NCBI RefSeq assembly: GCF_905475395.1
Contig: NC_058341.1
Location: 64,425,501 to 64,489,500, forward strand
Length of the DNA: 64,000 nt
DNA from: Chrysoperla carnea
Taxonomy: Eukaryota; Arthropoda; Insecta; Neuroptera; Chrysopidae
Reading direction: 5' to 3'
The notes under the pieces were generated by a model. That model made no database searches and was not told the origin of the DNA. It saw only the letters and a program-made list of their open reading frames with translations. Shown piece by piece: positions 7,701 to 53,849 of the stretch. Every line of letters begins with the position of its first letter. The first letter of the stretch is position 1. A program made the translations under genes and the position numbers.

Positions 7701-8125
7701 GCGGTATTATTTAATATCAGATAATATTTGTGAACAAAAAATAATAATTAATAAAACAACACACTTCAATATAAATTGTGTAATGAAATTTTAATTGCAC
7801 TATTAATAAGTCATTAAAAATACTAATTAGAAGTACGTCATTACTTCATTATTACATCACATTGTGATGTAAAAGAACTTTTCCTTCATGCTTCAATATA
7901 ATTCATTTTATGAATTCTTTTTATGATCACGTTTTTTATTTCTTTTCTATAAAATTAACAGCCAAGTTTGTACTTATATTAATTTACAATTATACTTACA
8001 TAAAAGAAATTAAAGCGAAACCTATTTGATACAAGTAATATAAGGTCTTAATGAATGTTAGTATATTAGGCATAAAATACATTTAGTCTTTGAACTCGGT
8101 TACACTGAACGTATTCGTATAATTA
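7701..8125. other. Intergenic DNA, no gene seen
   Basis: A+T-rich sequence with no recognisable gene or element. Confidence 0.5.
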
Positions 8126-9230
<1,105 letters not shown>

Positions 9231-32914: not shown

Positions 32915-33280
32915 TTAGTGTCCATAAATATCTAAGATAAAATTAAATCCATGTCCTGCTTGTGATTTAAAATGTAATTTTACAGCTCTTGTCCCAACTC
33001 CACCTTCCAAAAGTGTAACATATCCACCTTCTCCATTAACATATTGATCCGTTGCATTGATGAAATTAATTATTTCGTAGCCATCACCTTTTGCAGGATA
33101 TCGAATATCTTTAGTTACTTTACCACCAAAGGTTGCTGCAGATTTTTGTACAATTTGACGTGTAAGAAGACGATCACCAAGTTGTTTTTGACCTTGACTC
33201 CAATGATGACTCTGTCCGGAAACTGTACATGCAATAATTGCTATTACAACAATTGATATGATGAAATTTTTAGCAGTCAT
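32915..33280 (-). CDS. Gene A: secreted MBF2-family protein, 121 aa
   Basis: Residues 1-22 form a signal peptide (MTAKNF, then a hydrophobic core ending ACTVSG), so the mature protein probably starts QSHHW and is exported. The rest fits the insect MBF2 family (named after a Bombyx transcription coactivator): RLL...I at 37-43, RYP at 60-62, IINFINATD at 70-78, GGVG at 93-96, V..HFKS at 100-106, and C-terminal DIYGH. N75-A-T is an N-glycosylation sequon. The mature part has no cysteine. The protein is full length for the family in one exon. The start is the only ATG before the signal peptide and follows ATTGTTAAA, as in gene B. A TATA box lies 86 bp upstream, and AATAAA lies at 32881-32876. It is 111/121 identical to gene B, divergently oriented. 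Function is unknown; a secreted or salivary role is inference. Confidence 0.93.
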   Translation of the reverse strand: MTAKNFIISIVVIAIIACTVSGQSHHWSQGQKQLGDRLLTRQIVQKSAATFGGKVTKDIRYPAKGDGYEIINFINATDQYVNGEGGYVTLLEGGVGTRAVKLHFKSQAGHGFNFILDIYGH

Positions 33281-33358
33281 TTTAACAATGCAGTAAACTA
33301 CTTTTGTTATAGTGAAAATACTTTGTAAATATAATGTACGGACAATACTTTCTTGATT

Positions 33359-33366
33359 AATTTATA
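33359..33366 (-). promoter_or_regulatory. Predicted TATA box of gene A
   Basis: Minus-strand TATAAATT, whose first T is 86 bp before the ATG. It aligns with the TATAAATA of gene B within about 270 bp of upstream sequence shared by both genes. Confidence 0.6.
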
Positions 33367-33591
33367 TTTAAAATTTGAATGATAATTGATAATATTTCCT
33401 GATTAAATCTTTAGTTAATGCTAAAAAAACAAACAAATAAAATTATTTTTAATTGTGACTTACGCAAGATGTGTTAAAGTGTTCTAACTAACTCTTAGAA
33501 TTCCTTCCAAGAATTTATATCTAGTAGTATTTGATCGTATGATTAACGATTGTATTGGAAAGTTTGTTTAGTAGAGTGAAATTACGCCTTG

Positions 33592-35060
33592 TATATGGAT
33601 TAAAAGTTCGAGCAGTGAAACTTTGGGGTTTTTCTTTTCACATCAAAATAAGTATTTTTTGAAATTTTTTACTTTCCCGGAGTGAAGTATTTTTTGAAAT
33701 TTTTTACTTTCCAACATGTTTAAAAAACAAAATGGCGTCAAAAATGAAATTTTTTTCAGAAGACATCGGTGCATATCCAAATTTGGTAGGTTTGTAGTCA
33801 ATGTTAAGAACTACTCCTCATATTTTTTTGGTGGGGTTTCGTCCCTTCCCCTCCCAGTTATATATATATATACGTGTACATACATATGGTAAAACAGTTC
33901 ATTTGACTGTAACTTGAAAAATATTCGATTGATTTTAATGAAACTAATATCAATAGTAGGTTTTATTACTTACAACTTTCGGTTAAAATTTTAGCGAAAT
34001 CCGTTAAATAGTTCGGCCAAAATTTCCAATTTAGGGAATTGTTTAAAATGGCTGCCATTTTATGCCATTTTGTCCTACGAGGTTAAATTTTTTTTTAAAT
34101 TGTAGCATTTTTTATTGTCTTTCGATTTTATAATAAGTGACTAACCCGTAAAATGACTCCTTGATCCATATTTTTGCGAAAAACGGAAAATTTAACACTT
34201 TCTGGAAATAATTGTTTGGGGGGTGTATGAAGTGGCTTAGGGGGGTGTTTTTTGCTGTGGCATGAGAAAACTATTTTTAAAAGAGGTCTATATGGTTTAA
34301 AGCAAAATTTTTAAGTTTTAACCCCCGTGCTGTAAGGGGGAAGGGGTGTATGAAATAAATGTATCTTAAAAGATTTTAAAAAGAGGTCAAAATAGTTTAA
34401 AATGCTAAAGTAACCCAAAATTTTAGCTGTTTATATTAATATAGCACTTTTTACAACATCCACCCCTTCCCCTCCCGCTTTCATATTTTTTGCAAATTCT
34501 AAATTTTTAGGACGTATAAAGGGGTTTTGGGGGTCGCTGATCGTCGCTGAAATTTAACCTCGTAGGACAAAATGGCATAAAATGGCAGCCATTTTAAACA
34601 ATTCCCTAAATTGGAAATTTTGGCCGAACTATTTAACGGATTTCGCTAAAATTTTAACCGAAAGTTGTAAGTAATAAAACCTACTATTGATATTAGTTTC
34701 ATTAAAATCAATCGAATATTTTTCAAGTTACAGTCAAATGAACTGTTTTACCATATGTATGTATACGTATATATATATATATAACTGGGAGGGGAAGGGA
34801 CGAAACCCCACCAAAAAAATATGAGGAGTAGTTCTTAACATGGACTACAAACCTACCAAATTTGGATATGCACCGATGTCTCCTTTTGCGAATATAAAAT
34901 AAAAATGATAAAATTTCTGAAAAAAATTTCATTTTTGACGCCATTTTGTTGTTTAAACATGTTGCACCACTCCGGGAAAGTAAAAAATTTCAAAAAATAC
35001 TTATTTTGATGTGAAAAGAAAAACCCCAAAGTTTCGCTGCTCGAACTTTTAATCCATATA
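33592..35060. mobile_element. 1.47 kb inverted-repeat element between genes A and B
   Basis: Left arm 33592-34090 and right arm 34550-35060 pair almost fully, from TATATGGATTAAAAGTTCGA at the left end to TCGAACTTTTAATCCATATA at the right, and inward to TCCTACGAGGTTAAATTT. The left arm has a short direct duplication (AAGTATTTTTTGAAATTTTT) and the right arm has a small extra block near 34885. The centre (34091-34549) is not part of the arms. Its midpoint (34326) differs from the midpoint of the gene pair (35015), so it is an independent insertion. The 73-codon frame at 34723-34944 is in the arm. Confidence 0.82.
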
Positions 35061-36499
35061 ACAGCCTTTTTTTGCTTAGATTTACTCCAGTAGTTGGTGT
35101 AATAAACATACAGAAGTATGATTTAAAATGATTTTATATAATAGTATTTAGATTCTTCAACTTTGATGTCCTATCTTTTCTTTTTCAATTTGCGGACACC
35201 CTGTTAATTTGGTGTCAAGGGTGAATAGCTGAATTTTAATATTTTCGACAGCAGACATTTTTATAAACAATAATTATTTTCGTAAATATTAAAATAAAAA
35301 AAGTTTTCCGTATGGAAGCAACTTAAGTAGACACGCTGTATATTAACTGTGTACTTTCTCGGCAACATATTATGTGACGGTGTATTTATATTAAGCGGCT
35401 TTTGGTCAAGTCAAGGGAAAGTTCTTTAACGGACAAGATAGGAACGTATACAATATAGGGATGGGCATAAGAGCAGATAATAATCAAGCCTTAAGTATAC
35501 ACTATATTTTCATTTAAAACTTATTTTATTTATACGGTACGTTATACTACCAAGAGTACAATGTACTTTGGTTTATTTACGGATTTCTCAACAAACCAAT
35601 CATACGAAATAATAGAGTAAATCTAGATTATTTGCTGACTTGGCAATCGAATAGTTCAGTTTCGAAACTTTGAGAATAATTTTTTAATAAGGATAAACAG
35701 TCTATCAATTTTTGTACCTTGAGAAAATAGTGCGCTATAGTTAACCAACAAGAGGGTTATAATTAACCCAATCGAATTGACCCATATTTACTAAAATGAA
35801 TTTTTTACCCCTCCGTGTGGCCATTTTACCCTTCTGCCAGCTGGACATGTATATTTATATATATATACTTTTTTTGTCCGAGTATATGTCACTGAACTCC
35901 TCCTAAACGGCTGGACCGATTTTGATTAAATTTTTTGTATATGTTCAAGTGGATTCGAGACTGGTTTAGATTCACAATTTTATCCAGTATTCTAAAAATT
36001 ATGGTTCCACACCAAAAAATTAAAATCATTAAATCATTCTATTGTCATTCTGATAAAGAAATGAAAATAAATTTTGTGTTTAGCGATCCCAAGCATATAT
36101 AAGCCAGGCCGCATGCCTAACTGACCAAATAATGAAAGTAAGGTATGATTTAGCGTGTGGGGTCTAGCGGGACCAAGCATAGTATAGTTTTTAAATAATT
36201 GGAACTGCATGCGAGCGAATTGAGCTCCAAGACATAGGTCTAATTGTCCAAGAGATAGTTATAAAGTTTGAGTGGGCAGAATACGTATAGTATATCTATT
36301 AATGAATTGGAGCTGTATATTAATTAATATAAATAATCGCTGATCAAAAGTTCTAATAATATAAATTGTAGGGCCACTCGGTCATTTAGTGTATGTATAA
36401 ATATATATAAGAACCTCATTTGAAGAATACAAAAATTGGCGGCGCCTTTTAAATATGGCCGGCAAAATCTAAAAAAACAATCTTAAATCATAGGAAGGA
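35061..36499. repeat. Repeat fragments upstream of gene B
   Basis: About 35165-35345 is the reverse of the 645-830 repeat. About 35830-36070 carries CTCCTAAACGGCTGGACCGA, a common transposon phrase. The remainder, including a TAGCGATCCCAAGC-type block near 36083, shows no gene. Confidence 0.5.
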
Positions 36500-36662
36500 T
36501 CAAATACTAGAAATAAATTCTTGGAAGGTTTTCTAATAAATAGGTAGTTAGAACACATTAACATATCTTGTGTAAGCCATAATTAAAAATAATTTTATTT
36601 GTTTGTGTTGACAAGTATTTATGAAAGCCTTTATCAGGAAATGTTATCATTTAAATTTTAAA

Positions 36663-36670
36663 TATAAATA
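36663..36670 (+). promoter_or_regulatory. Predicted TATA box of gene B
   Basis: TATAAATA, 88 bp before the ATG. The spacing matches gene A (86) and gene C (87), where the same TATAAATAGA or a close variant occurs. Confidence 0.62.
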
Positions 36671-36750
36671 GATCAAAAAAGTGTCTTTCATGCATTGTAA
36701 TTACAAAGAATTTTCACTATAATAAAAAAATAATTTACTGTATTGTTAAA

Positions 36751-37116
36751 ATGACTGCTACAAAATTTTTCTTGTCAATTGTTGTATTAGCAATTATTGC
36801 TTGTACAGTTTCTGGGCAAAGTCATCATTGGAGTCAAGGTCAAAAACAAATTGGTGATCGGCTTCTTACACGTCAAATTGTACAAAAATCAGCAGCAACC
36901 TTTGGTGGTAAAGTAACTAAAGATATTCGATATCCTCCCAAAGGTGATGGTAATGAAATAATTAATTTTATAAATGCAACGGATCAATATGTTAATGGAG
37001 AAGGTGGATACGTTACATTATTGGAAGGTGGAGTTGGGACAAGAGCTGTAACATTACATTTTAAATCACAGAAAGGACATGGATTTAATTTTATCTTAGA
37101 TATTTATGGACACTAA
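36751..37116 (+). CDS. Gene B: secreted MBF2-family protein, 121 aa
   Basis: Intact single-exon copy of the MBF2-type family. Signal peptide at residues 1-22, mature QSHHWSQGQKQ, sequon N75-A-T, GGVG at 93-96 and DIYGH at the end. It differs from gene A at ten positions: K4T, N5K, I7F, I8L, I13L, L34I, A63P, Y68N, K101T and A108K. Five of these are in the signal peptide, so the mature part is the better conserved. The start ATG follows TATTGTTAAA. The poly(A) signal AATAAA is at 37153-37158. It is divergent from gene A, with the 1.47 kb palindrome between them. The MBF2 name comes from a nuclear coactivator, but the signal peptide argues for secretion. Confidence 0.94.
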   Translation: MTATKFFLSIVVLAIIACTVSGQSHHWSQGQKQIGDRLLTRQIVQKSAATFGGKVTKDIRYPPKGDGNEIINFINATDQYVNGEGGYVTLLEGGVGTRAVTLHFKSQKGHGFNFILDIYGH

Positions 37117-37310
37117 AAATTATCAATTTATGTCGCTATTATCTTTATTTACAATAAATAATTTATTTTTTTAAGTATTTACAGTCGTTTTACTATTTAT
37201 TTCAAATGTCATTATTCGACGAATTTTTAATGATTTTTCATTAAGAACACAAAATAATTTCGTACAAACTTTTATCACCATTTTGCATCTCCTTTTCCAT
37301 GATTTTCCCA

Positions 37311-38690
37311 TGAGGCAATAAAGAGTTTTTTCTACAAGATTTTTGTAATTACAAAGAAAAAAATATGTCTATTATTCTTCTGTAAAAATTGTGGAATTTT
37401 ATTTTAATAAAAAATAGTAATTTAATAATAATAGTATTTTATTAAAAAAAAAAATTTTTTATATGAAGTTGGACTAAGTCGACTAAAGTAGAAAATTTTA
37501 GGGGTGGTGGCCCAATTATTTAGATAAATAAATCACTTCAAAGTAGGCATATTTAACATATGTTAGGTTTTATAGGAAAACGGTAGATGGATGATATGTT
37601 TTCATAAATTTCTACAAAACTAGTAGGTGTAACTGAACAAAAACCTATTTCAATTAAAGTTAAAACCTTAATAAATTATGGAAAACAAAAAAAAACCCGG
37701 TGTGTTCCACTAATTAAATATGTATGACCACGGTAATGGGGCGCAAATTTAATAAAATACATATTTTCAATTTTGATGGTGAATTATGTTATAACTTGGC
37801 AATGTAAGATGAAAAGTAAAAATAAAATTGTTCGATATCTGGAGTAATTTTCAAAATATCGAATATTCAAAATTTTGTTTAATTATTTAGCTTTAATATT
37901 TCATTTAAATATTTCGAAAACGACATATCGAAAAACTGTAATTTTATTTTTCGCCTACATTCATGAAGTTATAAAAAAAGTCAAAATCAAAGTTGAAAAT
38001 TAGATGCAAATAATTTCAACCCTTAGTCCAAAATTGCCTTGGCGCTCGTGCATACCACCACCTTAAATATAGTATGTAAATTAAAATTTTATAATTTGTG
38101 AATTGAAATTGAATGAACTTAGCTATAAAAAACTATTAAAATATTTCAAAAAATACTTTGACGCAGGTTTTCCGAATGGTAACCTAGCAGCGATCCACTG
38201 GCCAAGTAGCGTGAAATTGGCTTGAATTTTTAGCGTTTAGGTTCGACCATTTAACGTCACACATTTTCAGTGGTTTATCCCAATTACAACCCATTGCCTC
38301 AACTTGGATAATTGAATAAGAATACTTTGAATTCTATAATGGCATAGGTTTGATCACTATAACATATGGACCAAGTGTGTGAATTTTGTAAGAAATGATT
38401 TCTTGCCCCTCTCTTGGGGTCATTCGGAATACAGGCAATCATAGGACAACACAGACGTATACATCAATTTAATCACAAGAATTTTCATTTTTTATCCATG
38501 TTTCTATGTGTATGATTCTGACTATGTTTGGAGATTCTGGAGACAATTAGCAGGCACAAACTTTTCTACGCATATCATTTCTAGATTTTCATTTGTACAC
38601 CAATGTTTCGTCATAAGAATAATGTTAATGTTTTGACTATTAAAAAATATACCAAATTAAACATTGAATCTTTTATCTAATCAAGTATTT
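37311..38690. other. Intergenic DNA; empty-site copy of the 9.2-10.0 kb repeat
   Basis: 37745-38075 matches the two flanks of family 1 copy 3 as one uninterrupted stretch. The rest has no recognised gene. Confidence 0.55.
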
Positions 38691-38704
38691 CTGTTTTTTG
38701 ATAT

Positions 38705-39150
38705 GTTGTTTGCAATTTGAAATCCAAGTTTTCGACCTCAGCAAACTTATTGCTGTGTTTGCCGATTTTGACCCGAGAGGACTGGATTTTCCAAAAAAAT
38801 TGTGGTATTTATTTTTAAATAAGGTTAAATTTTCACAATTTGAGATAATATCGGTTTTTAGAGGACCATTAGTTTCGGAGATACAGCTTTCCGATGATTG
38901 TCTAATTTTTCATGTTATACGATTTTACGTAAAAATTTCATCTTGTAAACCGTTATAGATAGATATATATATATAAATAAAAAACTTTTCTTGAAACATT
39001 TTTTCTTAAGATCACTGTTTTTTGTGGAAAAACCAGTCCTTCCGGGTGAAAATCAGCAAAAACTGAAGTAAGATTAAAGTTTTTCTTATTTTTCGGCATG
39101 ATCCGGTCGTTTGTCGGGGTCGAAAATTTCGATTTAACATTGTCCTAACA
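38705..39150. mobile_element. Inverted-repeat element, ~0.45 kb
   Basis: Left arm about 38712-38820 (GAGAGGACTGGATTTTCC) and right arm about 39010-39145 (GGAAAAACCAGTCCTTCC) are inverted, with GTTTTCGACCTCAGC facing GGGGTCGAAAATTTCG. The 86-codon frame at 38698-38958 lies in the left arm and is not a gene. Confidence 0.6.
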
Positions 39151-39383
39151 TTACAACAACATTTCAAAAAAGCAAAAAAATCTGACTTGATACAAGGGTC
39201 ATCCCTTTTTCATGTATAATTTGGTTAAATCATAATAGCCTATTTATTCAAACTGAGTTGTAGAATATTGACAAAAAAGACACTTCATTAGAGTTATCTC
39301 ATGTTGTCTTTATTTGTGTGAGCAAAGGGGCATTCTTGTACAATGAAATGCACAGTTCAATTGTTTAACTAGCCTACTATACT

Positions 39384-39612
39384 CGTCGCAGTCTACTAAA
39401 TTGGTTAAGGCGTTACCAATTCCGTCCGCGGTATGCTTAGAGTAGCGGGTTCGATTCCCGCCGTCGCAACAAAACTAATTTAATTCATAGTTGTGATGGG
39501 CTGGCGTAGTGCATGGTATATGCATGAAGGAGGTGCCCTCCGCCTCTGAAATGTATAGCCTAAGTGTGTCCTTCGTGGAAAGCCAATATCATCTAACCTC
39601 ACCTAACCTACT
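39384..39612 (+). mobile_element. tRNA-derived SINE, copy 3 (plus), best preserved
   Basis: The head has an A-box-like ACTAAATTGGTTAAGGC and a perfect box B (GGGTTCGATTCCC). The body includes GGTATATGCATGAAGGAGGT and CCTAAGTGTGTCCTTCGTGG, and the tail is CTAACCTCACCTAACCTA. It matches 7422-7700 (reverse) over head, body and tail. Acceptor strands do not pair, so it is not a working tRNA gene. Confidence 0.8.
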
Positions 39613-39885
39613 ATACTCGTATATCCTGTCTTTCTGTAAATTGAAAATTCAATTTACGTAAATTTCACAAAAACACCGAGGAAAGTGGTATGAAATTTGA
39701 GAGAATAAATAATATATTCTTGTTACTGATCTGCGATTAAGTTAAGTATTTCACGAAATATTAATTATTTTATCAATTTCTTACAAAAAACAACACTTTG
39801 ACTTTAATCAGATAGGATCCTTTTCACTTGTGAACATAATTTTTATGTTCTTAGAAGATAAATTCATGAAATATACAGGGTGGAT

Positions 39886-40345
39886 TATTTTAATCTATTA
39901 TGGCAACAAGCTCGGTTTGTAGTTAACCAATAAAAAATTAATAACTTAAACAAAAGTTGTGGAGTTACATGGCGTACATCATGTTTTAACATCAGATTGG
40001 ACCTAGTTCTCAAGGTTGCTTTAATTGTCAATTAAAATGCTAAAAAAATGTAAAAGATGACACTTTAAAATAGGTAAAACATTTTTGATTGAAAGCATTT
40101 TTCGAAAATTGTTAAATTTCGAAAAAAATATGCCATTATTACACTTACTCGAAAGAAAACATGCTAGCTATAGAAAAATACTCTAGCCAAAAGTTGTTAA
40201 GGAAAATAGAGGATAATCACCTGTGTCCATGACTTTGCTTTGAAATTCTAGTCTTAAGGACATTTTACTTTGATCTTCAAATTATTTTTAAGTCCCATTT
40301 CTTCCAAAAGCTAACGATTTTTGAGAAAATGTTTTGAATAACAAA
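39886..40345 (+). mobile_element. CAGGGTGG-type repeat, long copy
   Basis: Begins TACAGGGTGGATTATTTTAA and runs through ACATCATGTTTTAACATCAG to a block shared with 28186-28430 and 63720-64000 (AATCACCTGTGTCCATGACT). This copy links pieces seen separately elsewhere (20618-21130, 41630-41735, 63188-64000). No coding. Confidence 0.62.
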
Positions 40346-41740
40346 TGTTAGTTTTAAATACTGTCATTTTACTGGTATGTATGCATGTTTGTCTGTTCCC
40401 TAATAACTTCTAAACTACTTATCATAATTTGATAAAAGAATTATCGTTGAAAGCATCTTGATCGTTATATGCTTTGTGACGTCACTTTAAATTGAATATG
40501 GCGCCCTCTACAGGGCATAAAGCAATGAACTAAAAACAAATTTTAATACCAAATGAAAGGGCGTAATTAGCACCTTATAAAAATATATATTGTTTTAGTT
40601 TATCATGAAATTATAATCGCAAAATAGTTTAAAATTAATGTATTTTCGTCTGTTCCTTTCTAGTTTCTAAACTACTTATCATAATTTGACAAATGAGGAA
40701 TCGCTGACAGCTTTTTGATCGTCCGTTGACTATGGGCTATGAAACGTCGAGTTAAATTGACTAAGATGTTCTTTAGAGAACATGTACTAAGAATTTTAGA
40801 TATTTTTATTTAATGGTATCATGGTAGGAATCAAATGAAAGGGTGTACTGAGCACTTTTCAAATATATACATGTGTCGTTATACTTTATCACAAAATTAG
40901 AGCTCTAAAATAGTTTAAGTAAAATAAAGTTCAAAACCAAAAACTTCTTAAAAGTAAAACCTCTTAAAGCTCTTAAAAGTATGGAAACAAGAAAATATTT
41001 AACTTCCGAGTGGGAAGTTATTGTATTGGGTCCGATTTTGCAAATTGAAAATTTTGACATAACTCCAACTTTCAAGACATTTAGAGTCGAATAGTGTGTT
41101 TTAAAAGGATGTCCGTGTGTGCACATGTATGTATGTATGTATTTATGTATGTGTATGTATGTATGTATGTTCGGATTCAATTTTCGCCTCGCGTATCTCG
41201 AAAAAAAATGAGGATATTGACGACTACTTTCATTTAACGCGTTGTACCGAATGAAAAATTGTATAATTGTCATTATTATCACTTATCATTTATTAGCACT
41301 TATCATTTATATAGTTTTAAAGTCATCGGGGGTGCAGGGGGTAACACCTCCACTGGGGTACGGGGGGGGGGAGATGCTCCCTGAAATGAAAAAAAAAATT
41401 GTTTACAAAAAAAAAAAAAAAAAAAAAACGATATAAAATAATAAAAGTAATAATAATAATAGGGGATCTGCAATAGTTTAATTTTAATAAAAAATAAAAA
41501 TAAATAACGATTTCAGATGTAAATATTTGATTTGTTTTCATAATTTTAAGAGCGTGATTTTGTATTCAGCGGGATTTTAGTTTTTGAACTTTATTATATA
41601 TTTTTTAGAATCTTTGCTATTAACGTAACCCGAAGAATTAGGTCTAATCTGATGTCAGAACATGATGTCCCCCATCTCTGAAACTTTTATTTAAGCTATT
41701 TTTTGATTGACTTCAAATGGTTCACCCTGCATATAAATTC
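40346..41740. repeat. Repeat fragments before gene C
   Basis: 40395-40700 contains two direct repeats of TTCTAAACTACTTATCATAA or a variant (about 40407 and 40664). 40998-41230 is the GGGTCCGATTTTG repeat with a (TATG)n tract (41131-41175). 41408-41427 is an A-run. 41630-41735 is a reverse fragment of the CAGGGTGG-type repeat. The frames at 40905-41282 and 41242-41541 are translations of these repeats. Confidence 0.5.
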
Positions 41741-41852
41741 GTGCTTACGTTGGAAACAACTACTACACTACTAACGTAAGTAGTTATATTGATAATAATG
41801 AAACAGATTTTATCCATAAATACTATCAGTAATACCTATTAATTATTTTTAA

Positions 41853-41860
41853 TATAAATA
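41853..41860 (+). promoter_or_regulatory. Predicted TATA box of gene C
   Basis: TATAAATA followed by GA, 87 bp before the ATG at 41940. It is the same motif and spacing as gene B although the genes are far diverged. Confidence 0.6.
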
Positions 41861-41939
41861 GAATTGAAAAAAATTTCAAATTATTATACCGAAGAACGAT
41901 TTAAGCAAAACTCATACATTGTTAAAGTACATTGTTGAA

Positions 41940-42302
41940 ATGGCTGCTATAAAATTACTACCAATAGCTTTATTAATCATTATTGTAAGTGCAGTTTCGG
42001 GAAATGATTATTGGATTAAAGGTGACAGGCAATATGACGATCGACATTTGGTACACGGTAATATAATGAAATCTGGATCACCTGGTGAATTAACCACAGA
42101 CAATTTTGTATATCCTCCTCCTGGATTTGTTTTCAATGATATTATTAATTGCATTAACGTTACTGATAATCATGCGCATGCTGAAGGTTTTAAAGTTGAC
42201 ATCATATCAGGAGGTATTGGAAAAAATCATGTAATGTTATTTTTGGAATCATCACAAGAAGGATCTGATTTTGATTTGAGTGTGGATATTTATGGACATT
42301 AA
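41940..42302 (+). CDS. Gene C: diverged secreted MBF2-family protein, 120 aa
   Basis: Same architecture as genes A, B, D and E but much diverged. Signal peptide at residues 1-21 (MAAIKLLP, long hydrophobic core, SAVSG), then NDYW. Family landmarks kept are YPPPG at 58-62, DIINCINVTD at 67-76, GGIG at 91-94, the S..G..F spacing near 104-111 and DIYGH at the end. The sequon is N73-V-T. It has one cysteine in the mature part (C71), where A, B, D and E have Phe, and it is more acidic. The ATG at 41940 is chosen because it follows CATTGTTGAA, like the ATTGTTAAA before genes A and B. The open frame extends seven codons further up only to a TTG. The poly(A) signal AATAAA is at 42417-42422. An old paralogue, likely secreted. 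Confidence 0.88.
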   Translation: MAAIKLLPIALLIIIVSAVSGNDYWIKGDRQYDDRHLVHGNIMKSGSPGELTTDNFVYPPPGFVFNDIINCINVTDNHAHAEGFKVDIISGGIGKNHVMLFLESSQEGSDFDLSVDIYGH

Positions 42303-42489
42303 TATAATTTACATTAATTTGATTTTAATATATTTAAGTTTTTGTTATTCATTTAATTTTAATGAATTATTATATTTATATATTAAATACAGTTTTTACA
42401 CAAAATTTTTGTTTGTAATAAAACAACATTTATCACAAAACTTCAAATTTCCTTGATTCCCATTTCTCATAATAGAAATGAATCCTATA

Positions 42490-43140: not shown

Positions 43141-44327
43141 TGCATTCATGCGACTTTAAAGACCTAAGAGCTTCTACACACAGAAAGATTTATATGGGAG
43201 TGAAATGATTATCGTTGTCTTCGTTATCAAAATTATGCATTGGAGTAAAGAAAACGATTATTTCTTGACGACAAATCGGTGGGATGTTTCCATATTTACT
43301 TTATATCATCATACGTACATTATTATATCAACTATATAAATAAATGCAAGCTTTGACAAACAGTGCTTTTTGTCGCTAAGACTTAAGATCTATTGTTAAA
43401 TTTCGTGATAAAATGTTCGTGCTTAAATTAATTCATCAAATTAATAATTATAAATTTTAATATTATAAATATGTTTTAAAATGATTTGAACAGTAAAGAT
43501 AAGTAAAATTTTAATTTCTTTAGTGAAACAACTAGCCCAATCTATTTAGGGGCCAAAGTTAATGCAACCCCCGTTAATTCGGAAAAACTCATCCAAAATT
43601 ACTTTTTTCTATTCGAAATATGCTCAAAAGATGGAATTATCACCAATCGAAATAAACCAATCGACCACAAATTAACGAAATAGTCAATAAATAGTATATA
43701 GATAAATTTCATTACCTACATTACAATTCCTCGAAAAATCGGAGGAAAAACCCAAAATTATGTATATTCAATGGAAATGTGTCAATAAACAAAGCTTCAG
43801 GTATGGCGCTCACCACTGTCTATCTCAAAAACGGTGTAGCTTTTATGCTTTACAATTTTTATTATATGTAAAAATCATAGAAACTAATAGAAACTGAGAC
43901 TACTTTGACCTTGAATAACTTACGACGCAGGCACGAGGCTTTTGAGATAATATTGAGAACGACAAAATGAAGTATATATGAAAATTTCGCTTATTATAAT
44001 CTCTTATTCCAAAATTAAAATACCAGAACTTATTACCGTGCACTGATCTCTTCATACTACTTCAATAGTGGTTTGTCGTAATACCAAGACACATATGTTG
44101 TGTTTTGTTTATATATTTAGTTGTATAGCTTTATAAAATAGTTCAGAATTTATTTATTTATATACTCTGTGAATATAGAACTATTCTAGAATGTGTTACT
44201 TCATACTATTTTACTATATATGGTAATTTTTTAAAAACTTTCCAATTTTTCAAAAGCGTATAGGCCAATAACCGAGTATTTTTTTTCTGTAAAATACTGC
44301 ATAAATTTTTATCCAGTATCGGTATCC
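43141..44327. other. Intergenic DNA, no gene seen
   Basis: Nothing recognised. Confidence 0.45.
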
Positions 44328-44660
44328 TCCGAGTGTAAATCCAAATTGGTTGAACGAAGGGGCGTGTGCTTCAGCCGCCATCTTGGAAAACACGTTTTAC
44401 CTTTCTGGTGAACCGGATATCTCTCGTGAAGGTTTGGAGCGATATAAATAAAAATCCTTGCATTATACAGAAAAAAATCTCCAATAAAAATTATAGAAAA
44501 TTTTATTCTCTATGAAAATGATCATTGCCTTTTTGTTGTCCGGTTGCGCGATGTTCGGTTCACGAAATATTTGATAAAACGTGTTTTCCAAGATAGCGGC
44601 TGAATCTCACGCTCCTCCGTCCCGATAATTTAGACTTACGCTCGGGAGATACCCCTAAAC
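44328..44660. mobile_element. ~330 bp MITE-like inverted repeat
   Basis: CCGCCATCTTGGAAAACACG at 44375 faces CGTGTTTTCCAAGATAGCGG at about 44580. The outer blocks TCCGAGTGTAAATCC and TTTAGACTTACGCTCGG also pair. Noncoding. Confidence 0.68.
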
Positions 44661-45719
44661 ATATTCCAACACGAAAAAAATTCCTGCAGAAAATTGCATT
44701 ATGAAACTCCTTTTTTTGTTCTGGCTATTGGGGAGCATTGGAATATCAAAACGGTAGAATATCGAATGAAAAAAATGTGCCAGGTTTAATTTTCCGAGGG
44801 TGCTTTCCGGATCAAACAATTTCAATTTGGTTTTTTAAATGGAATTATATATTTTTGAAGCAGATTCTGGTTCTCTTTTTGACTAAAAAACAATTTTTCT
44901 TCCTAGACCTAAATTCTTGGTCCCTGATTTCATGTACTTTCAGATTAAAAAGTTTCCTCCAAGAAAATTTCAAACTCATGAATTCAAATAGTTGTTTATA
45001 CAGATTTTTTTTTTAATCGAAAATAATTTTTGTCTCCTAAATTTGTTTTCAAAACTATTTTTTACAATTTTTAGCACTTAGAAATCAGCCCAAAGTCATG
45101 TACCAAAAATTGAGGCCTAAGAAAAAGTTTTTCAAACAAAAGCTGATTTGTTGAGACAAATAATCAGAATCTGCTATATAAAGTAGGTACTCCAAAACAA
45201 TGGACAGCTACCCACGCTCCCCCCCCCTCGAAAAAAAATTTGCTGGGGAATTTTTAAAAGGATGAACAAGGTGATTTAGAATTGCAGAAAAATGAATGAT
45301 AGTCGTTATAAATAAAGAATTTTTACTAAATATTTGAGTATGGTACGTTTAGCAAATGTATCAATATCATTTTTAGATTTTGAGATAATAGCGGAGCTTT
45401 AAATTAAAAGCTTGTTTTTTTGTTATGATTATGTTTGTATCGGTGTGAACGCTATGGTGTATACTGTATTGAGAGAATATTAACATAAGAAATAGCTATG
45501 GCGGATGAGTCAATGCAGTATGGGAGTCAGGCCCATACTGGCTTGCGATACCCACAATACTTCTGGTGAATTGCCCTATTCAATACTGTAATATTACTTA
45601 TGCTAATACAGACCTGTCTCTGTACCATAACAGCATTGCAGTAAACGCCATGAATTTTTTACCGTGCAGAAATATTTTAAAGACTAAAATAAACCAATTT
45701 TATCTAAAAAGACTAAATA
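44661..45719. repeat. Diverged fragment of the gene D/E upstream MITE family
   Basis: About 44725-44850 resembles the left half of the element at 46074 (GCATTGGAATATCAAAACG; AATTTTCCGAGGGTGCTTTC). The 92-codon frame at 44738-45016 is within it. A C-run lies at 45222-45230. The rest shows nothing. Confidence 0.5.
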
Positions 45720-46073
45720 AACCAATTTTCATCAATAATTGCCTTTCCTCAAGTTAAAATTTTTTAGAAAGCTATAAGAAAGGCAGTGCATATGGGTGAA
45801 AATTTCCCAGAAGGGCTACGAATGTGAAATTAATTTGTAAAATCTGATTGCTTAAAAATTTCAATGAGAAAATCAAGTGGAATTAAGTTTTACCACTCAT
45901 GAAATTATTATTAAATAACCTTCTTTCATACAACGTCAATTTTATACGTCAAGAAAAATTAATTAGAAATTACCTTTTCTTAAAAATTGATAATAACAAA
46001 ATGTTTTTATCAATAAAATGATTATCTATCAAACAATTCCTAATTTAAAAACAATAACAATTTTGTATCAATA

Positions 46074-46545
46074 CAGGGTGATTTTTAAATAAAAAGTTCA
46101 CAGATCACTTTTTTAAAATCGGATTGGAATATCAAATGCGAGTCATTGTACTTGTGAGAAGAATGAAACAAATGTGCCTAATTTTATTTTCCGGGGACGT
46201 ATTACGGATCAAACGACGATCAAATTTCTTTTATTTAATATAACTCACCATTATTGGTAGCAGATTTTGTTTCTTCAAAAAAGGATTTTTTCTTTTCTTT
46301 GACCACTTTAGAATTAAAAACTTAAGGAAAACTATAGGAAAAAGATTTTATAGACAAAGGTCACTTATTTCTGGAAAAAAAAAGAATGTGAAAAAACGTG
46401 ATTTTTGTTGCGGTAAAGAAACAACATCTGCTATAAGAAATAGTAAGTTCTCAAAAAAACGAAGTTGACCATCGTTTGAACCGAAAGAGAGGTATTCCAA
46501 TCCGTCCTTGAAAAATGACTTGGAAACTTTTTAAAAATTCGTCTG
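46074..46545. mobile_element. TA-flanked MITE upstream of gene D (472 bp)
   Basis: Starts TA|CAGGGTGATTTTTAAATA and ends AAAAATTCGTCTG|TA. Terminal inverted repeats extend some 60 bp (AAATCGGATTGGAATATC facing GTATTCCAATCCGTCC). The TA flanks and CAG terminus suggest a Tc1/mariner-type non-autonomous element. It stops 155 bp before the gene D ATG. Confidence 0.72.
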
Positions 46546-46570
46546 TAGGTATTAATAATTTATATTTTAT

Positions 46571-46573
<3 letters not shown>

Positions 46574-46645
<72 letters not shown>
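46574..46645. repeat. (TA)n microsatellite at the gene D core promoter
   Basis: About 72 bp of uninterrupted AT dinucleotides, located where genes A, B, C and E have a TATA box. The 89-codon minus frame over this point reads poly(Ile-Tyr) and is an artefact. Confidence 0.9.
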
Positions 46646-46648
<3 letters not shown>

Positions 46649-46654
46649 GATAAA

Positions 46655-46659
46655 TCAGT
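46655..46659 (+). promoter_or_regulatory. Predicted initiator of gene D
   Basis: TCAGT, the arthropod initiator consensus, with its A 43 bp before the ATG. The identical placement occurs in gene E. Position -31 falls inside the (TA)n tract, which could act as the TATA element. Confidence 0.45.
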
Positions 46660-46699
46660 ACTCTGACATCTAATTTTATTTGATTAAAATCAATACAAT

Positions 46700-47056
46700 A
46701 TGAAATTATTATTACCAATTGTTGTATTAGCAATTGTTGCTGGTGTTGTGTTCGCACAAATTCATCATTGGAGTCAAGGTCAGAAGCAACCTTATGATCG
46801 TCTTCTGTCACGTCAAATTGTAAAGAAATCAGCAGCAACATTTGGTGGTAAAGTAACGCAGGATATTCGATATCCTAAAAAAGGAAATGGTAAAGAAAAT
46901 ATTAATTTTATAAATGCAACGGATCAATATGTTAATGGAGAAGGTGGATTTGTTACATTATTGGAAGGTGGAGTTGGAACAAAAGCTGTAAAATTACATT
47001 TTAAATCACAGGAGGGACATGGTTTCAATTTTATTTTGGATATTTATGGACACTAA
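46700..47056 (+). CDS. Gene D: secreted MBF2-family protein, 118 aa
   Basis: Intact single-exon member. Signal peptide at residues 1-19 (MKLLLPIVVLAIVAGVVFA), mature QIHHWSQGQKQPYDRLL, RYPKKG near 57-62, sequon N72-A-T, GGVG at 90-93, DIYGH end, and no cysteine. It is 113/118 identical to gene E, differing at V16A, F18S, I21S, E105K and H118N (D to E). It is shorter than A and B by three residues in the signal region. The start is the first ATG after CAATACAAT, shared with gene E. The poly(A) signal AATAAA is at 47084-47089. It lies in a tandemly duplicated block whose core promoter is altered by the (TA)n tract. The role is unknown; probably an extracellular small protein. Confidence 0.94.
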   Translation: MKLLLPIVVLAIVAGVVFAQIHHWSQGQKQPYDRLLSRQIVKKSAATFGGKVTQDIRYPKKGNGKENINFINATDQYVNGEGGFVTLLEGGVGTKAVKLHFKSQEGHGFNFILDIYGH

Positions 47057-47248
47057 ATAATTTATTTATCTGAATATATTGTCAATAAATATTTTTTTAA
47101 TATTAATTTTCTTGTTTTGCTCATTTATTGCAGTTCATTCAATTAATTCCCTACCAATAAATTTTAAATTATGAACTAATTTTGAATTTCAAGTACGGCA
47201 TGCCCAAAAGTGATAGCTTTAATTATTTACAAGAAACATTACAAATAA

Positions 47249-47419
47249 ATCAAATTTTTTTATATTGGTCAAAAATATTTATTACCTATGCCTGTTCCAC
47301 TAAACGGACAAACAAAAACAAAACAGAAACTCGTGTCGAAAAAAAGAAAACTGCTGACAAACTTCTTGAAGACTGTCAATTTAATAGCTATTACTGTTGC
47401 ATTATTTAAACTGTATTAG
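47249..47419 (+). other. Unrecognised short frame with membrane-like C-terminus
   Basis: A frame open from 47249 with an ATG at 47288 ends at TAG 47417-47419. From the ATG it encodes 43 residues: MPVPLNGQTKTKQKL, a basic stretch SKKRK, then a hydrophobic end around LIAITVALF. Its codons are less A+T-biased than the surroundings. A second frame over the same DNA ends CCII. It could be a retrocopy, a last exon or chance. I do not recognise it and no promoter or splice signal stands out. Confidence 0.2.
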
Positions 47420-48489
47420 TAAGAAAGGAAATTTTGCACTTCAATCCCTAAAACGAGCAAATGGGACAGGGATCTTGCTGTTTCAGAAATAGGAGTAAAG
47501 TTTGTGTTTAACGGGTAGGCTATGCGGGTGGGTTAAGCAAAATAGTATTAGCTTATTAATGAATAAAATTTATAGCTGCAGGTGTTAATTTAGAATTAAT
47601 AATCGCAGATCAAAAGTTATAATCAAATAAAGTAGAGGAAAAGATGCTAATTTGGAATACTGCAGGTAATTGGGAATACTCAGTTAATTTAATTAATGTA
47701 CATGCCATCTCTGGTTTGGGACCATAAACGTGACATACAAAGTCAGTGAGTACTGAAAACGCGGCGCCATCTTGACATTTCTACTGTGAGCCACAAGGAA
47801 ACAAAACGTCTGCTTTGAAAAACTTTTCGGCAAGAATATAATCCTACATACCTATTTACTACAATATACGAAATCTCCATTGCAATTGTTTAAAGTATTA
47901 AGTGACCTTATTAGTTTATTATTTCAATTCGATTTCGTGAATATTTCTATTAATAGAAATCTGAAATGGTGATTTAGATTAGGATGACATGTTGTTGTTA
48001 ATTTGGAATACCGAAAGGGAACATATTTTGGAACATTTTAATTTGCAATGAAATCAGCTGAAAGGGGGCCCTTAATAACTATTTTGATCTGCCCCACAGA
48101 TATATTTGTCCCTCAAATTATAATTTTTCCGCGAAAAAATATGTCTGATGTCCATCGGGATGGATCCAAACTAACTTATTTACGCAATGGTTTCAACACT
48201 TTGTAGAATTTGTAAAACCAATAGGAGCACCACCAGTGCACTTGATTCTCGATGGTCATTACAGTCATACCAAAAATATATTCATTTAATAATTAAAAGT
48301 GCAAGCAATTATCAAAAAAAGTAGGCGAATATAATTTGGAATACTACAATCCAAATTACCTGCACCCTAAGTAAAATCACGCTTTTGGAAATTTTTTGTT
48401 TGATAGTTTTTTTGAGAATAAGTTTTGCTTTTTTTATTGTTTATATTATTAAAGTTAAATAACTTTCCAAAAATTTTATGTTTTACTCG
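47420..48489. other. Intergenic DNA with a fragment related to 36.1-36.4 kb
   Basis: About 47560-47640 (AATAATCGCAGATCAAAAGT) resembles 36330-36370 upstream of gene B. No gene recognised. Confidence 0.45.
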
Positions 48490-48724
48490 CCATGTGAACT
48501 GATTCTAGCGCTGTCTGGTGGTATAAAATAGAAGTTGTCTATGACAAGTCAAATTTCAACAGAAATAAATCACATCACATAGTTTAAATTAGTTATTTTC
48601 TTTCATTTCACTCATTATCAAAATATTAATAAACAATTCAATCATAGCCATGCTTAAATTTGACTTTTCATAGACAGCTTCTATTTTCTACCACTAGACA
48701 GCGCTAGAATCAGTTCCCTGGAGA
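48490..48724. mobile_element. ~235 bp MITE-like palindrome
   Basis: GAACTGATTCTAGCGCTGTC on the left faces GACAGCGCTAGAATCAGTTC on the right, and the arms continue inward through TAGAAGTTGTCTATGA / TCATAGACAGCTTCTA. Noncoding. Confidence 0.72.
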
Positions 48725-49064
48725 ATTGGGCTAACCCTTTTATTCTTTTCTAGCAAAAAAAAAAAAAAATAGTAAATAATATTAATAATCAATTTTTGTG
48801 AAAAATATTTAACTTTTTATATGAATCCTTTTGTATAGAACTTTAAGTTCGTTTGTTATTTTCTCTCATTTTTTTCTATTTTGCATATTTTGGGAGATAT
48901 TTAAAATGAAAGATTTACGTGTTATAATTTTTTTTTTCAGCCACTCTGCAGATGGCAAGTTTTTCTTAACAATCACTTATAAAAAAAGCTCCATCTCCAT
49001 CTTGTCTTTAAATGCACTAAATTACAGGAGTTATTTTTTATTTAAATAAATTCAGTACCACGTA

Positions 49065-49600
49065 CTGAATGAAAATGTTCAAAATCCTTACAAAATTAGG
49101 CGGGGGAAGTGCCTCCATTTTAAGGAATACCATTTTAGGCTCTATGTCCATAACCTTGCACTTGTTACCAAAAATGGTAACACTCATAACTTTTACTGTA
49201 GATAATTAAATTACCTACCTTTTTTCTAATACATTTTTTTTAATAACTAACGGTTTAATTTGTTTAAACGAGAAAATGATAATAACTTAGCTTATAAATC
49301 TACACATTTCCTAAAAGTCTTCCTGTAAACTTTTTTTTCTAAAATTAATACTTACGAAGTTGTAACACGTTTAATGTTGCAACCACCAGGTGAAAGATTA
49401 ATAGAAAAACAAGTGAAATCAAACAATTTACTATTTTACAAAACAGACAGGAAGTTTGATTTTCTACACTAAAGACCATTATCATTTTTGGTCTAGAGTG
49501 CACTGTTATGGCGATATATCCCAAAATGGTTTTCCTTAAAACAGAGGCACTATCCCCGCCTATTTTTGTAAGAATTCTGTGCATTTTGTGCAAAAATTTT
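49065..49600. mobile_element. Inverted pair of CCTTACAAAATTAGGCGGGG repeats
   Basis: AAATCCTTACAAAATTAGGC and GTGCCTCCATTTTAAGGA on the left face their complements at 49540-49590 (AAACAGAGGCACTATCCCCG; TTTTGTAAGAATT). Fragments of the same family are at 895-1060 and 7265-7340. The 82-codon minus frame at 49345-49593 is in the right arm. Confidence 0.62.
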
Positions 49601-50139
49601 CTGAAGTACTAGCTAGTAGTGAATTCTCATAGTAAACAAATAATTATAATATTAAATAATAACAATTTGTTTAAATTGATATAAATTTTCACCTGTAATT
49701 TATTTTCAAATAAATTCTTAACAGCAATACAACATGGATGGTAAGATAAGGTATAAAGAACAACGTATACTGCAAGAGATTGTCTTTCACCTTGTTCTAT
49801 CTTCTCTATCTAGTGTAAGTAAGTGAAATAGATGTAGAAATTCCATAATTTAACAATATTTCACGTGTTTCGTTTTAAATTTTCATTGAAAATGTTTTCC
49901 TTGATATCGTATCTTACATATTTAAAAGCAATTGAAAACTTTTACAACACACAAATAAATAACCTAAATACAAAAAGGTAAAATATGGAATATACCAGCA
50001 TGATATCCGGCTGTTTCGCTGAGCAATTTCCATTACAAAAGACCACCGCGTTTTAATCTTCACCTTTCTTGCTTTCTTTTAACCTCCTTCTATAACACTC
50101 GAAATACTGTTTATTATAAATGCAAACTATTTATTATTT
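49601..50139. other. Intergenic DNA, no gene seen
   Basis: Nothing recognised. Confidence 0.4.
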
Positions 50140-50350
50140 AAATAAATTTCGATTTTTGCCCCAATTTCCTAGATCAGTTTTTTGTATTTTTAAAATACGT
50201 ATTTTCGACTACCAAGTAGTCATCATCAGTAAGAATTAGCTAGTGAATGTTACTGATGATGACTACTTGGTAGTCGAAAATACGTATTTTAAAAATACAA
50301 AAATCTGATCTAGGAAATTTGGGCAGAAATCGAAATTTATTTCGACATAT
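50140..50350. repeat. ~205 bp near-perfect hairpin
   Basis: TTTTTAAAATACGTATTTTC and GACTACCAAGTAGTCATCAT on the left are mirrored on the right (ATGATGACTACTTGGTAGTC, then GAAAATACGTATTTTAAAAA). The outermost blocks AAATTTCGATTTTTGCCC / GGGCAGAAATCGAAATTT also pair. The loop is about 25 bases. It looks like a short foldback transposon. Confidence 0.75.
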
Positions 50351-50379
50351 CCTAGAGTTCTCATTTATTATCTTCGATA

Positions 50380-51120
50380 ATATTTATATTATTTGCTTTT
50401 AAAAGAGAAATTTTTCGGTGAAACGAGCGGGTAATCTTTAAGAATGTTTTAATGTTTTATTAAAATGTATGAGCTATATTATTGTTTCATTCAAATCCTT
50501 TGAGTAGTTTTCAAAATCGTCCAGCGAAGCGGGCGGATAACTGATATCTTTATAAACTATAGCCAGTGTGTTATTCTGATTTATGTGTTATATTATTGTA
50601 AAATTTCATTCAAATCCGTTTAGTAGTTTTTGCGTAAAATCATTTCAAACAACCAAACAAAGTCACTTTCGCATTTATAATATACTAGCTTGATACTTAC
50701 CTGCTTCTTTGAACTTAAAAGAAAACACGACCGCATTATAGCCACCACCTCTGTTGCTCTCACTTATCTTCCTTCCATAACACTCGAAATAGGGAAGGAG
50801 ATTGTTTGACACAGGTGAAATATATGTACAGATTTCAATTTTTTTTAAATGTTTTATACTCTTGATTCATTGAGTGTATCGCAGAACAGATGGCCATGAA
50901 TTGAATCTCCTTCACTATTTTTACAGAAAACTTTAATTAATAGTCCAAAATGATACTCATAGCTGTCGTAGTGGAATGCTATATACTATTATAGGTCATG
51001 TGTTATTCTGATGGATGAGCCTTTTTTTGTACAGTTGCATTCAAATCCCTTCGTTAGTTTTAGTGTGAAAGCGTAATAAGCAAACAAACTACCTTACTTT
51101 CACATTTATAATATATGGAG
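50380..51120 (+). repeat. Retroelement-like repeats with GCGAAGCGGGCGG / ACTAGCTTGATA heads
   Basis: Two relatives in tandem: 50380-50690 ends TTTCGCATTTATAATA, and 50690-51120 begins TACTAGCTTGATACTTACCT and ends TTTCACATTTATAATATATG. The family matches 4830-5450. No coding. Confidence 0.58.
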
Positions 51121-51296
51121 ATGGTACACATATGAAATGGAAAAGTTCGGAGGCTGTTTTGCATCCCATGTTTCATTAACGTGGTACATCTTGAGAATAA
51201 ACATTATGAATATTTATTCTCAAAAACAAGAGTATAACTTGTTCTCAATAAAAAATATTAGTAAGGTAGTTGTCGTGGTACAATATATATATATAT

Positions 51297-51825
51297 AAAT
51301 ATTATGGAATATGCGCGCTGTAAAAGTATACGATCCATAATAATAGCTAAGTGGTCCATAATATTTAAGCAAGCCTGTACTCGTGGAGACGTTACACATA
51401 CAATACTCAACTGTCTGACTCGCTACTATGTATACTCGCTATAACGTCTTTCTGTCTGACTCGCTACTATGTATACTTGCTTATAATTTGTTGAACTTTA
51501 AACCACTTTTAAAAAATAACTAGACTATCAAAAATTTTTTATATTTTTTTTTAATAATCGAAACATATCAATTAATAGATTGTTAGTTTTTGGAAAATAT
51601 CTGGCAGTTAGTTTGTTTTTTATAAATTTATAATTGATGCAAAAGTATAAAGAGTGTATACCATACATGTTAAATATCGAACTATTAATTAAATTTATCT
51701 CGGATTATAGACGGTCAATCAGATTCAAATTTTAAGGGTAATTGTACAATCATGTCTTTAGTTAGTACACAAAAATTTAGAATTTTCTGACGCTACTCAA
51801 ATATCGCGACAACAACCTTAATATC
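51297..51825 (-). mobile_element. Dispersed repeat family 2, minus copy
   Basis: Reverse copy of 23885-24425. It holds two tandem CTGACTCGCTACTATGTATA units at about 51416 and 51457. Confidence 0.65.
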
Positions 51826-52419
51826 TATTCATTTTGAAACGTTTATTATAAGCAAAGATTAAGGAAATAAAATTTAAAATTAAACTTTTTTTATCAAGAT
51901 ATCTTCGAAATCATGAGGAAATTCATTACTTGGAAAGCAAGATAAGTGTTTGGGTCGGACTTAATGTTGCTGTATATAGTCTAGATGTAGTCGTTCTAAA
52001 AAGTATAAAGTGTTTCATTCATTTTTCATAAATTTAAGTAAATTAAGGTAGTAAAGATATAGGTCGTTAATTTCCAGGCTTCGAGATATCACCTTTCTTA
52101 AAAATTGGTTTTATCATATGTGTTTTTAACATATCTGGAAATATACTACATTCAAAAGATTGTAGATATAAACTGGTATTTGTGCTATGAAGAATAAGTT
52201 TTTTTTAGAAGAATAAGTTTAATAGTGATTTCATCAACTCCTCATGCGAATTTTTCTGTTGATTCAGGCGTAACCAATTCCGTCTGCGGTATGCTAAGGA
52301 TTTTGGGGGACCATTTGCACAGCATAATTTAGGAGCAGCACTAGATAGGCCTAAAAAGAGCAGCAGACGTATCAATTCATTTTTCCTGATTTAATTTAAT
52401 TGGATGCTTACCCGAACAA
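51826..52419. other. Intergenic DNA with a SINE scrap
   Basis: 52265-52300 (GGCGTAACCAATTCCGTCTG, CGGTATGCTAAGG) is a short piece of the tRNA-like SINE head. Nothing else recognised. Confidence 0.5.
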
Positions 52420-52802
52420 CCAAAAAAAAATTCATTTTTCACAATTTCATTTATTATTGCCTTTCCGAAAAGTTAAAAAAAATTGCTGGCTATTAAGAAA
52501 TCGGTACAGGGTCAACAATTTCCCGGAAAGGCATAAGTCTGAGATTAGTTGATCATTTAAAAGATTAATAAAAAATTTGTGTATATTTTGTAAACTTTCT
52601 GAAAATTTTATTCAGAAAATTATTTTAAAATAAGTTTTATCACTTATGAAATTATTATACGATAAGCTCCCGCTTAGAGTACGTCAATTTTATATTTTAA
52701 GTAAAATTAATTACCTTTTCTTAAAAATTGACAATCAAATATTTTTATCAATAAAATTATTATCTTACAAACATGTTCTAGTCCAAAAACTTTGTACCTA
52801 TA

Positions 52803-53401
52803 CAGAGTGATATTTTAAAAAGTTTCCAGCAAATTTTTTCAAAAACGGATTGAAAAATCAAAAAAAGCCGTCTTATTCTCGGAAAGCAGAAAACAATTTT
52901 GGCTATTTTTATTTTCCGAGGACAGATGGTTTTGTTTTTTTGTCGCAAACTGTTCAACTTTTATTTGAAAAATGTTTTTCCTATCCCATAATTTTCGGAA
53001 TGGTTTTTTTTTTTTTTTTTTTTTTTGTTAAAATGTAGAAATAGTATAGAAAAAATTTTGTATACTTAAGTTAATTATTTTTCGAGAAAAATTATTAAAA
53101 TTATTTCTTTGAGAATTAGTTAGCTTAAAAATTGTTGTTGGTCAAAACCTGAAAATAACTGAAACTGAAATCAGATACCAATTATTGAGGACTAGGAAAA
53201 AATTTAAAAAATAAAAGTTTCTTTTTAACGGTAACGAATAAAAACCTACTATTAAAATAGTAAATTTCAATAACATTAAAAAACCAACCATCATCTTTTG
53301 ATCCGGAAGACCTCCTCGGAAGAAACCAAGACTCATTTTTTCCATTATTCCCGAAAATAAGAAGACTTTACCGTGCCGGAAACTTTTAAAAATTCAACCT
53401 G
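52803..53401. mobile_element. TA-flanked MITE upstream of gene E (599 bp)
   Basis: Starts TA|CAGAGTGATATTTTAAAA and ends TTTTAAAAATTCAACCTG|TA. It occupies the same position in the duplicate as the 46074-46545 element, so the insertion predates the duplication. The interior is longer and includes a T-run at 53006-53026. It ends 92 bp before the gene E ATG, almost touching the TATA box. Confidence 0.72.
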
Positions 53402-53407
53402 TATATT

Positions 53408-53414
53408 TATAAAA
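53408..53414 (+). promoter_or_regulatory. Predicted TATA box of gene E
   Basis: TATAAAA 85 bp before the ATG. Further TATA-like strings at 53415-53432 are closer to the TCAGT initiator at 53448-53452, so the exact TATA element is uncertain. Confidence 0.5.
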
Positions 53415-53447
53415 TATATATTACATATAAAATATATTGTGGAAAAT

Positions 53448-53452
53448 CAGTA
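53448..53452 (+). promoter_or_regulatory. Predicted initiator of gene E
   Basis: TCAGT with the A 43 bp before the ATG, the same distance as in gene D. Confidence 0.45.
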
Positions 53453-53492
53453 CTGACGTCTAATTATTTTATTTGATTAAAAACAATACAAT

Positions 53493-53849
53493 ATGAAATT
53501 ATTATTACCAATTGTTGTATTAGCAATTGTTGCTGGTGCTGTGTCCGCACAAAGTCATCATTGGAGTCAAGGTCAAAAGCAACCTTATGATCGTCTTCTT
53601 TCACGTCAAATTGTAAAGAAATCAGCAGCAACCTTTGGTGGTAAAGTAACGCAGGATATTCGATATCCTAAGAAAGGAAATGGTAAAGAAAATATTAATT
53701 TTATAAATGCAACGGATCAATATGTTAATGGAGAAGGTGGATTTGTTACATTATTGGAAGGTGGAGTTGGAACAAAAGCTGTAAAATTACATTTTAAATC
53801 ACAGAAAGGACATGGTTTCAATTTTATTTTGGATATTTATGGAAACTAA
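53493..53849 (+). CDS. Gene E: secreted MBF2-family protein, 118 aa
   Basis: Intact single-exon member and tandem sister of gene D (113/118 identical). Signal peptide at residues 1-19 ends GAVSA, and the mature protein starts QSHHWSQGQKQPYDRLL. Sequon N72-A-T, GGVG at 90-93, no cysteine. The last residue is Asn (DIYGN), a single C-to-A change from the His seen in all four others. The signal peptide ending AVSA and Ser21 resemble A and B more than D's VVFA and Ile21, so D is probably the changed copy there. The start is the first ATG after AACAATACAAT. The poly(A) signal AATAAA is at 53877-53882. Likely secreted; function unknown. Confidence 0.94.
   Translation: MKLLLPIVVLAIVAGAVSAQSHHWSQGQKQPYDRLLSRQIVKKSAATFGGKVTQDIRYPKKGNGKENINFINATDQYVNGEGGFVTLLEGGVGTKAVKLHFKSQKGHGFNFILDIYGN

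Follow-up and report, generated by a model that had tools for sequence, protein, structure and literature searches.

What do five small, related genes between positions 32915 and 53849 of a repeat-rich stretch of the lacewing Chrysoperla carnea genome encode, and where would their products act? The genes, A to E, lie in the 64-kb stretch analyzed here (the window), C5 64,425,501–64,489,500 of the 559-Mb assembly; positions are those of the window unless a contig is named. The best explanation, to which we give a probability of roughly 0.6, is that they form a duplicated array without coding introns, whose small secreted proteins of the MBF2 family are released with saliva or venom or from the gut lining and may bind partner molecules.

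The Array Genes Encode Probably Secreted MBF2 Proteins

The first-pass annotation described five intact, single-exon genes of 118–121 codons, and all five frames indeed run open from ATG to stop at the positions claimed. Gene A (32915–33280, minus strand) and gene B (36751–37116, plus strand) are arranged head-to-head; each encodes 121 residues, and the proteins are 92% identical. Gene C (41940–42302, plus strand; 120 residues) is the divergent member, being 36–41% identical to A, B, D, and E, and its mature part is net acidic with one cysteine. Genes D (46700–47056) and E (53493–53849), both on the plus strand and 118 residues long, are recent duplicates with 96% identical proteins; E ends in DIYGN. 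The absence of introns from A to E covers the coding part, and an intron in the 5′ untranslated region is conceivable.

All five proteins match the Pfam MBF2 model (PF15868) in hidden Markov model (HMM) scans, with scores of 88.7 bits for A (scanned minus its first residue), 91.7 for B, 61 for C, 90.5 for D, and 90.8 for E. The curated cut-off is 25 bits, and each alignment spans profile positions 2–90 of 90. These scores rule out a chance resemblance. In the numbering of A minus its first residue, the invariant columns are W26, D35-R36-x-L38, N74-x-T76-D77, G92-G93-x-G95, and D116-I-Y-G119. The GG(V/I)G and DIYG(H/N) motifs reported earlier are present throughout, as is the shared sequon, one per protein at the same position, reading N-A-T or N-V-T.

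Each protein also begins with a single hydrophobic core, located within residues 3–18, which bears out the signal peptide proposed for all five; the call is made by hydropathy only. The 12-residue Kyte–Doolittle maximum is 3.07–3.42 in the core and at most 1.33 beyond residue 28, so that the hydropathy scan shows no membrane segment past the N-terminus. Small residues precede the likely cleavage site in all five, and the mature part is cysteine-free in A, B, D, and E. It is nearly certain that the array proteins are secreted MBF2 members. The array is an ordinary insect pattern, and its genes are further members of a known secreted family.

Relatives of the Array Proteins

A profile search returned 14 proteins: seven unnamed, three from C. 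carnea, two venom polypeptides of the robber fly Dolopus genitalis, and two from Hermetia illucens. Three C. carnea records (P0001, P0005, and P0006) bear the NCBI name "probable salivary secreted peptide". Since the nearest named non-lacewing relatives include robber-fly venom proteins, the array is a candidate for a saliva or venom role. In other insects, 13 MBF2-domain members were detected in Dolopus venom, the family being cysteine-free except for one member (PMC6266666); Dasypogon has multi-copy venom genes that are MBF2-domain-like (PMC6615979); two robber flies had more MBF2 coding regions in the transcriptome of the thoracic gland than in that of the body (PMC5793116); and sand-fly salivary families include one MBF2-like protein (PMC7092997).

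In a tree of 21 rows, it is the lacewing C4 copies, rather than A, B, D, and E, that share a group with the proteins of Dolopus and Hermetia (support 84/97). Seven of the 18 inner branches have support below 80%, and the long branches of C, Hermetia14, and C4e make their placement unsure. Compared with P0009, P0012 has 21 additional residues (V...Q), inserted between YPRK and G. As judged from the protein sequences, the insertion resembles a retained intron of 63 bases, and its site is unlike the one in the two-exon paralogs of C. carnea described below.

Duplication and Selection

The local amplification proposed for this locus is supported, as C5 carries six copies within 79 kb, with graded synonymous divergence (dS) between copies. 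The five genes do lie in the interval, but the cluster is larger than the five described, as it has a sixth copy, 25.2 kb ahead of the first position of the window. The dS is 0.067 for D/E, 0.22 for A/B, and 0.28–0.42 for A/B against D/E, while C is near saturation. By sequence, the array grew by stepwise local duplication: C is an old member, A and B form a pair, D and E form a recent one, and the sixth copy lies upstream.

The ratio of nonsynonymous to synonymous divergence (dN/dS) is 0.21 for A–B and 0.27 for D–E, and it ranges over 0.28–0.34 in the four cross pairs. By Fisher tests, for which the counts were rounded, the p values of the six pairs are 3.7e-5, 0.046, 2.9e-5, 0.0012, 0.00037, and 0.00013. 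These values indicate purifying selection among A, B, D, and E, and the earlier description of the set as rapidly evolving does not hold for them. At most it may fit C, the dN/dS of which is 0.56–0.79, near saturation, with Fisher p values of 0.35 against A, 0.017 against B, 0.18 against D, and 0.22 against E. In 5000 simulations with 0.35 neutral changes per site, indels not being counted, a B-like frame stayed stop-free in 2%.

A Public Record Joining Genes B and E

The best public protein match is P0001, "probable salivary secreted peptide, partial [Chrysoperla carnea]" at NCBI. It equals B over residues 1–86 and E from residue 71 to the end, without a difference; A deviates from it at 11 places, D at 23, and E at 20. 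Within the shared stretch both B and E read GAAGGT, so that a splice donor could be read in B and an acceptor in E. P0001 (window 36751–53849) is probably a chimera, judging by this composition; the simplest reading is an automatic join over about 16.7 kb, to which reads of near-identical copies may have given rise. A separate seventh gene was considered and provisionally set aside: the record is accounted for by B and E, and a genome search with B (15 matches) found no locus closer to B than A, at 92%.

Protein searches started from B, from E, and from a profile of 14 rows turned up neither D nor E as a record of its own; one of A could be hidden within the 90% cluster of P0001. Because P0001, the only public model met for the array, is chimera-like and these searches gave no record of D or E alone, proteome searches on the present annotation may under-count the array proteins in lacewing secretions.

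Flanking Signals and Surrounding DNA

TATA-like boxes occur at nearly equal distances upstream of A (−87/−86), B (−89/−88, in the upstream segment 36655–36750, plus strand), and C (−88/−87). In E, TATA-like boxes occur together with the sequence TCAGT at −46. An AATAAA begins 28 to 115 bases after the stop in all five genes. Long AT microsatellites are found in the window at about 8600–8850 and at 46570–46690; the latter lies directly upstream of D, where E has its TATA-like boxes.

The interval had been called transposon-rich and without another supported gene. The second claim stands: a six-frame Pfam scan of window positions 30000–59898, with X at stops and with Pfam as the sole test for other genes, gave only the five MBF2 genes at E ≤ 0.01. 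The first holds only in part: the DNA is repeat-rich. Of the interval, 37% matches other parts of the window (gene–gene matches counted in) and 23% has matches in 220 kb taken from other loci in the genome, but a transposon protein domain was not found in the scanned segment. The window holds no Rfam family at gathering scores and no transfer RNA gene.

A search for further MBF2 remnants in the window was negative, as the five proteins in tblastn at E ≤ 1 matched only one another. Outside the six MBF2 genes, 114 kb of C5 scanned with the HMM scored no more than 0.4 bits. An apparent long A–B inverted repeat, a 1530-base match of 100%, is a mere overlap of two excised regions, and the 100% B–C and C–D matches are likewise overlaps.

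MBF2 Genes Elsewhere in the Genome

Across the genome, the Pfam MBF2 model gave at least 22 matches, all above cut-off, from 25 candidates scored. Besides the C5 cluster, five copies lie at C4 60.38–60.48 Mb. Of the 22 matches, 14 begin at profile position 1 or 2 and eight at positions 17–20; two of the late-starting matches, at C2:61.8 Mb, still carry a signal-like start in the same frame. For two others of the eight, the paralogs at C5:16.55 Mb, the first exon lies apart, and the intron after it, bordered by GT and AG, falls at the position that corresponds to B residues 45/46. The array genes are without this coding intron.

Several copies have features of their own. The tandem MBF2-like genes at C2:61.8 Mb (L033:3886–4311 and 5055–5477) have a hydrophobic C-terminal tail, possibly a glycosylphosphatidylinositol anchor signal. 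In the tandem MBF2-like pair at C1:126.96 Mb (L034:5769–6221 and 8019–8438), the N-terminal part contains cysteine. A divergent copy of the C4 group (L039:8865–9167, C4:60.42 Mb) has no signal peptide in the same exon frame. The copy at C1:22.16 Mb (L018:1516–1821), of 102 residues, has no clear signal peptide, and P0010, a relative, has the same short start at 85% identity. A signal-less MBF2 form may have been kept.

The Predicted Fold

The sole convincing sequence relative in the PDB is HARP1 (9wia), matched with an E value of 4e-13 over profile positions 23–120. The matches to Cas1 (E 0.76), C5a (0.5 and 1.2), and lacto-N-biosidase (0.96) are taken as chance. For two predicted models, lufaxin (8eo2, 8enu, and 8eok) was the best fold match among the Foldseek matches listed, from which HARP1 9wia was absent; for the second model, 8enu was not among the 50 matches listed. 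The eight rows in the alignment of the second model all recur in the 22-row alignment of the first, so that the second is not an independent replicate and only the target differs; this slightly lowers the odds given to the shared-fold proposal below. The profile search of PDB sequences gave no lufaxin match at E ≤ 10. The predicted lufaxin-like fold is the part worth following. Should sequence evidence or a solved structure confirm it, a widespread family named after a transcription cofactor would be tied to a known mode of action, the blocking of immune and clotting complexes, and its function would become directly testable.

Proposed Role and Alternatives

We suggest the following pathway. 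The precursor would be cut after VSG, VFA, or VSA, giving a mature protein of about 95–100 residues, cysteine-free in four of five cases and presumably N-glycosylated at one site. Its fold would be all-beta, with seven strands, and it would be released by saliva-, venom-, or gut-lining cells. Less firmly, it would act not as an enzyme but as a binder interfering with protein partners in prey or feeding fluid. This mode is proposed because HARP1, a sequence relative, and lufaxin, of similar predicted fold, act in this manner; by this analogy, inhibition through partner binding is tentative. The chance of an oral-secretion or venom role is somewhat below even, and the role is best regarded as a well-motivated guess. 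The salivary label offered at the outset fits the automatic NCBI name and the assassin-fly venom relatives. Weighing against it, the main texts of the two C. carnea venom papers (one of them PMC12758981) are silent, containing none of the terms "MBF2", "REPAT", or "salivary secreted".

The most substantial alternative holds that the array encodes gut or blood-cell immune-response proteins like lepidopteran REPAT, released into the gut lumen or hemolymph, turned on by infection or feeding, and having no role in prey. Homology between the REPAT and MBF2 genes has been described (PMC8527508), and Repat33 reportedly acts in the immunity of Spodoptera exigua (PMC8156158). In regions of the mosquito gut, expression of MBF2 genes ranks with the highest (PMC9113746). 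In Bombyx, MBF2-2 and MBF2-3 are markers of a rare class of hemocytes, and three MBF2 genes are linked on one chromosome (PMC8914287). As far as database contents go, however, the nearest named non-lacewing relatives include assassin-fly venom proteins, and we consider this alternative possible, at odds well short of even. Seminal or egg proteins would also be compatible with a signal peptide and local duplication, but selection among A, B, D, and E is purifying rather than diversifying, and no relative or paper met in this work points to reproduction (no separate search for such a role was made); a reproductive function is improbable.

Two further readings have very little probability. The family name implies nuclear coactivators bridging FTZ-F1/MBF1 and TFIIA, an activity for which it was named in Bombyx (PMC8156158, PMC9113746), but all five array proteins have a signal-peptide-like start and the conserved sequon. 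The genes might instead be duplicates that are mostly silent and decaying into pseudogenes. The very long branch of C would suit that reading, as would its dN/dS, which in comparisons with A, D, and E does not fall clearly below 1; against it stand frames that have stayed open where neutral change rarely leaves B stop-free, the purifying selection in A, B, D, and E, and the retained promoter-like and poly(A) signals.

Comparison with Known Systems

The array of secreted MBF2 proteins resembles other sets in the MBF2/REPAT family, which forms small secreted multi-copy sets, such as the three linked genes of Bombyx (PMC8914287) and the 54 REPAT genes of Spodoptera exigua (PMC8527508). Named venom counterparts are two Dolopus genitalis polypeptides, probably of Asilidin family 11. 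One is 52% identical to B across 97% of its length, the other 47% across 95%; gene C is only 28% identical to one of them, P0008. Assignment of P0008 and P0011 to this family is inferred from name, species, and domain. Asilidin family 11 members have 96–146 residues and are nearly all cysteine-free, and the array proteins, at 118–121 residues with cysteine-free mature parts in A, B, D, and E, are like them in sequence, size, and cysteine content. This is likeness and does not imply orthology. In addition, Asilidin family 11 was seen in venom by proteomics; the array proteins are candidate venom components.

HARP1 is by name a Helicoverpa armigera oral-secretion effector; HARP1 and HAS1 are REPAT members in caterpillar oral secretion (PMC11762215). 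HARP1 targets JAZ repressor proteins of plants, to which it binds (PMC10582130, PMC11762215), whereas lacewing larvae eat animals. Lufaxin, from the saliva of sand flies, inhibits factor Xa and binds the C3 proconvertase of complement; identity to it is about 19%. Sergentomyia lufaxins have 296–337 residues and six conserved cysteines (PMC7092997), whereas the mature array proteins have none or one; by sequence and by the six cysteines, the array proteins do not appear to be lufaxin-family members. A broader proposal, which we put forward as speculation with a minority chance of being right, is that the MBF2/REPAT domain and the lufaxin N-terminal domain are one ancient secreted insect fold. 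Lufaxin, HARP1, the robber-fly venom polypeptides, and the array would then be branches of one family of partner-binding blockers, the array blocking prey hemolymph proteases or immune complexes.
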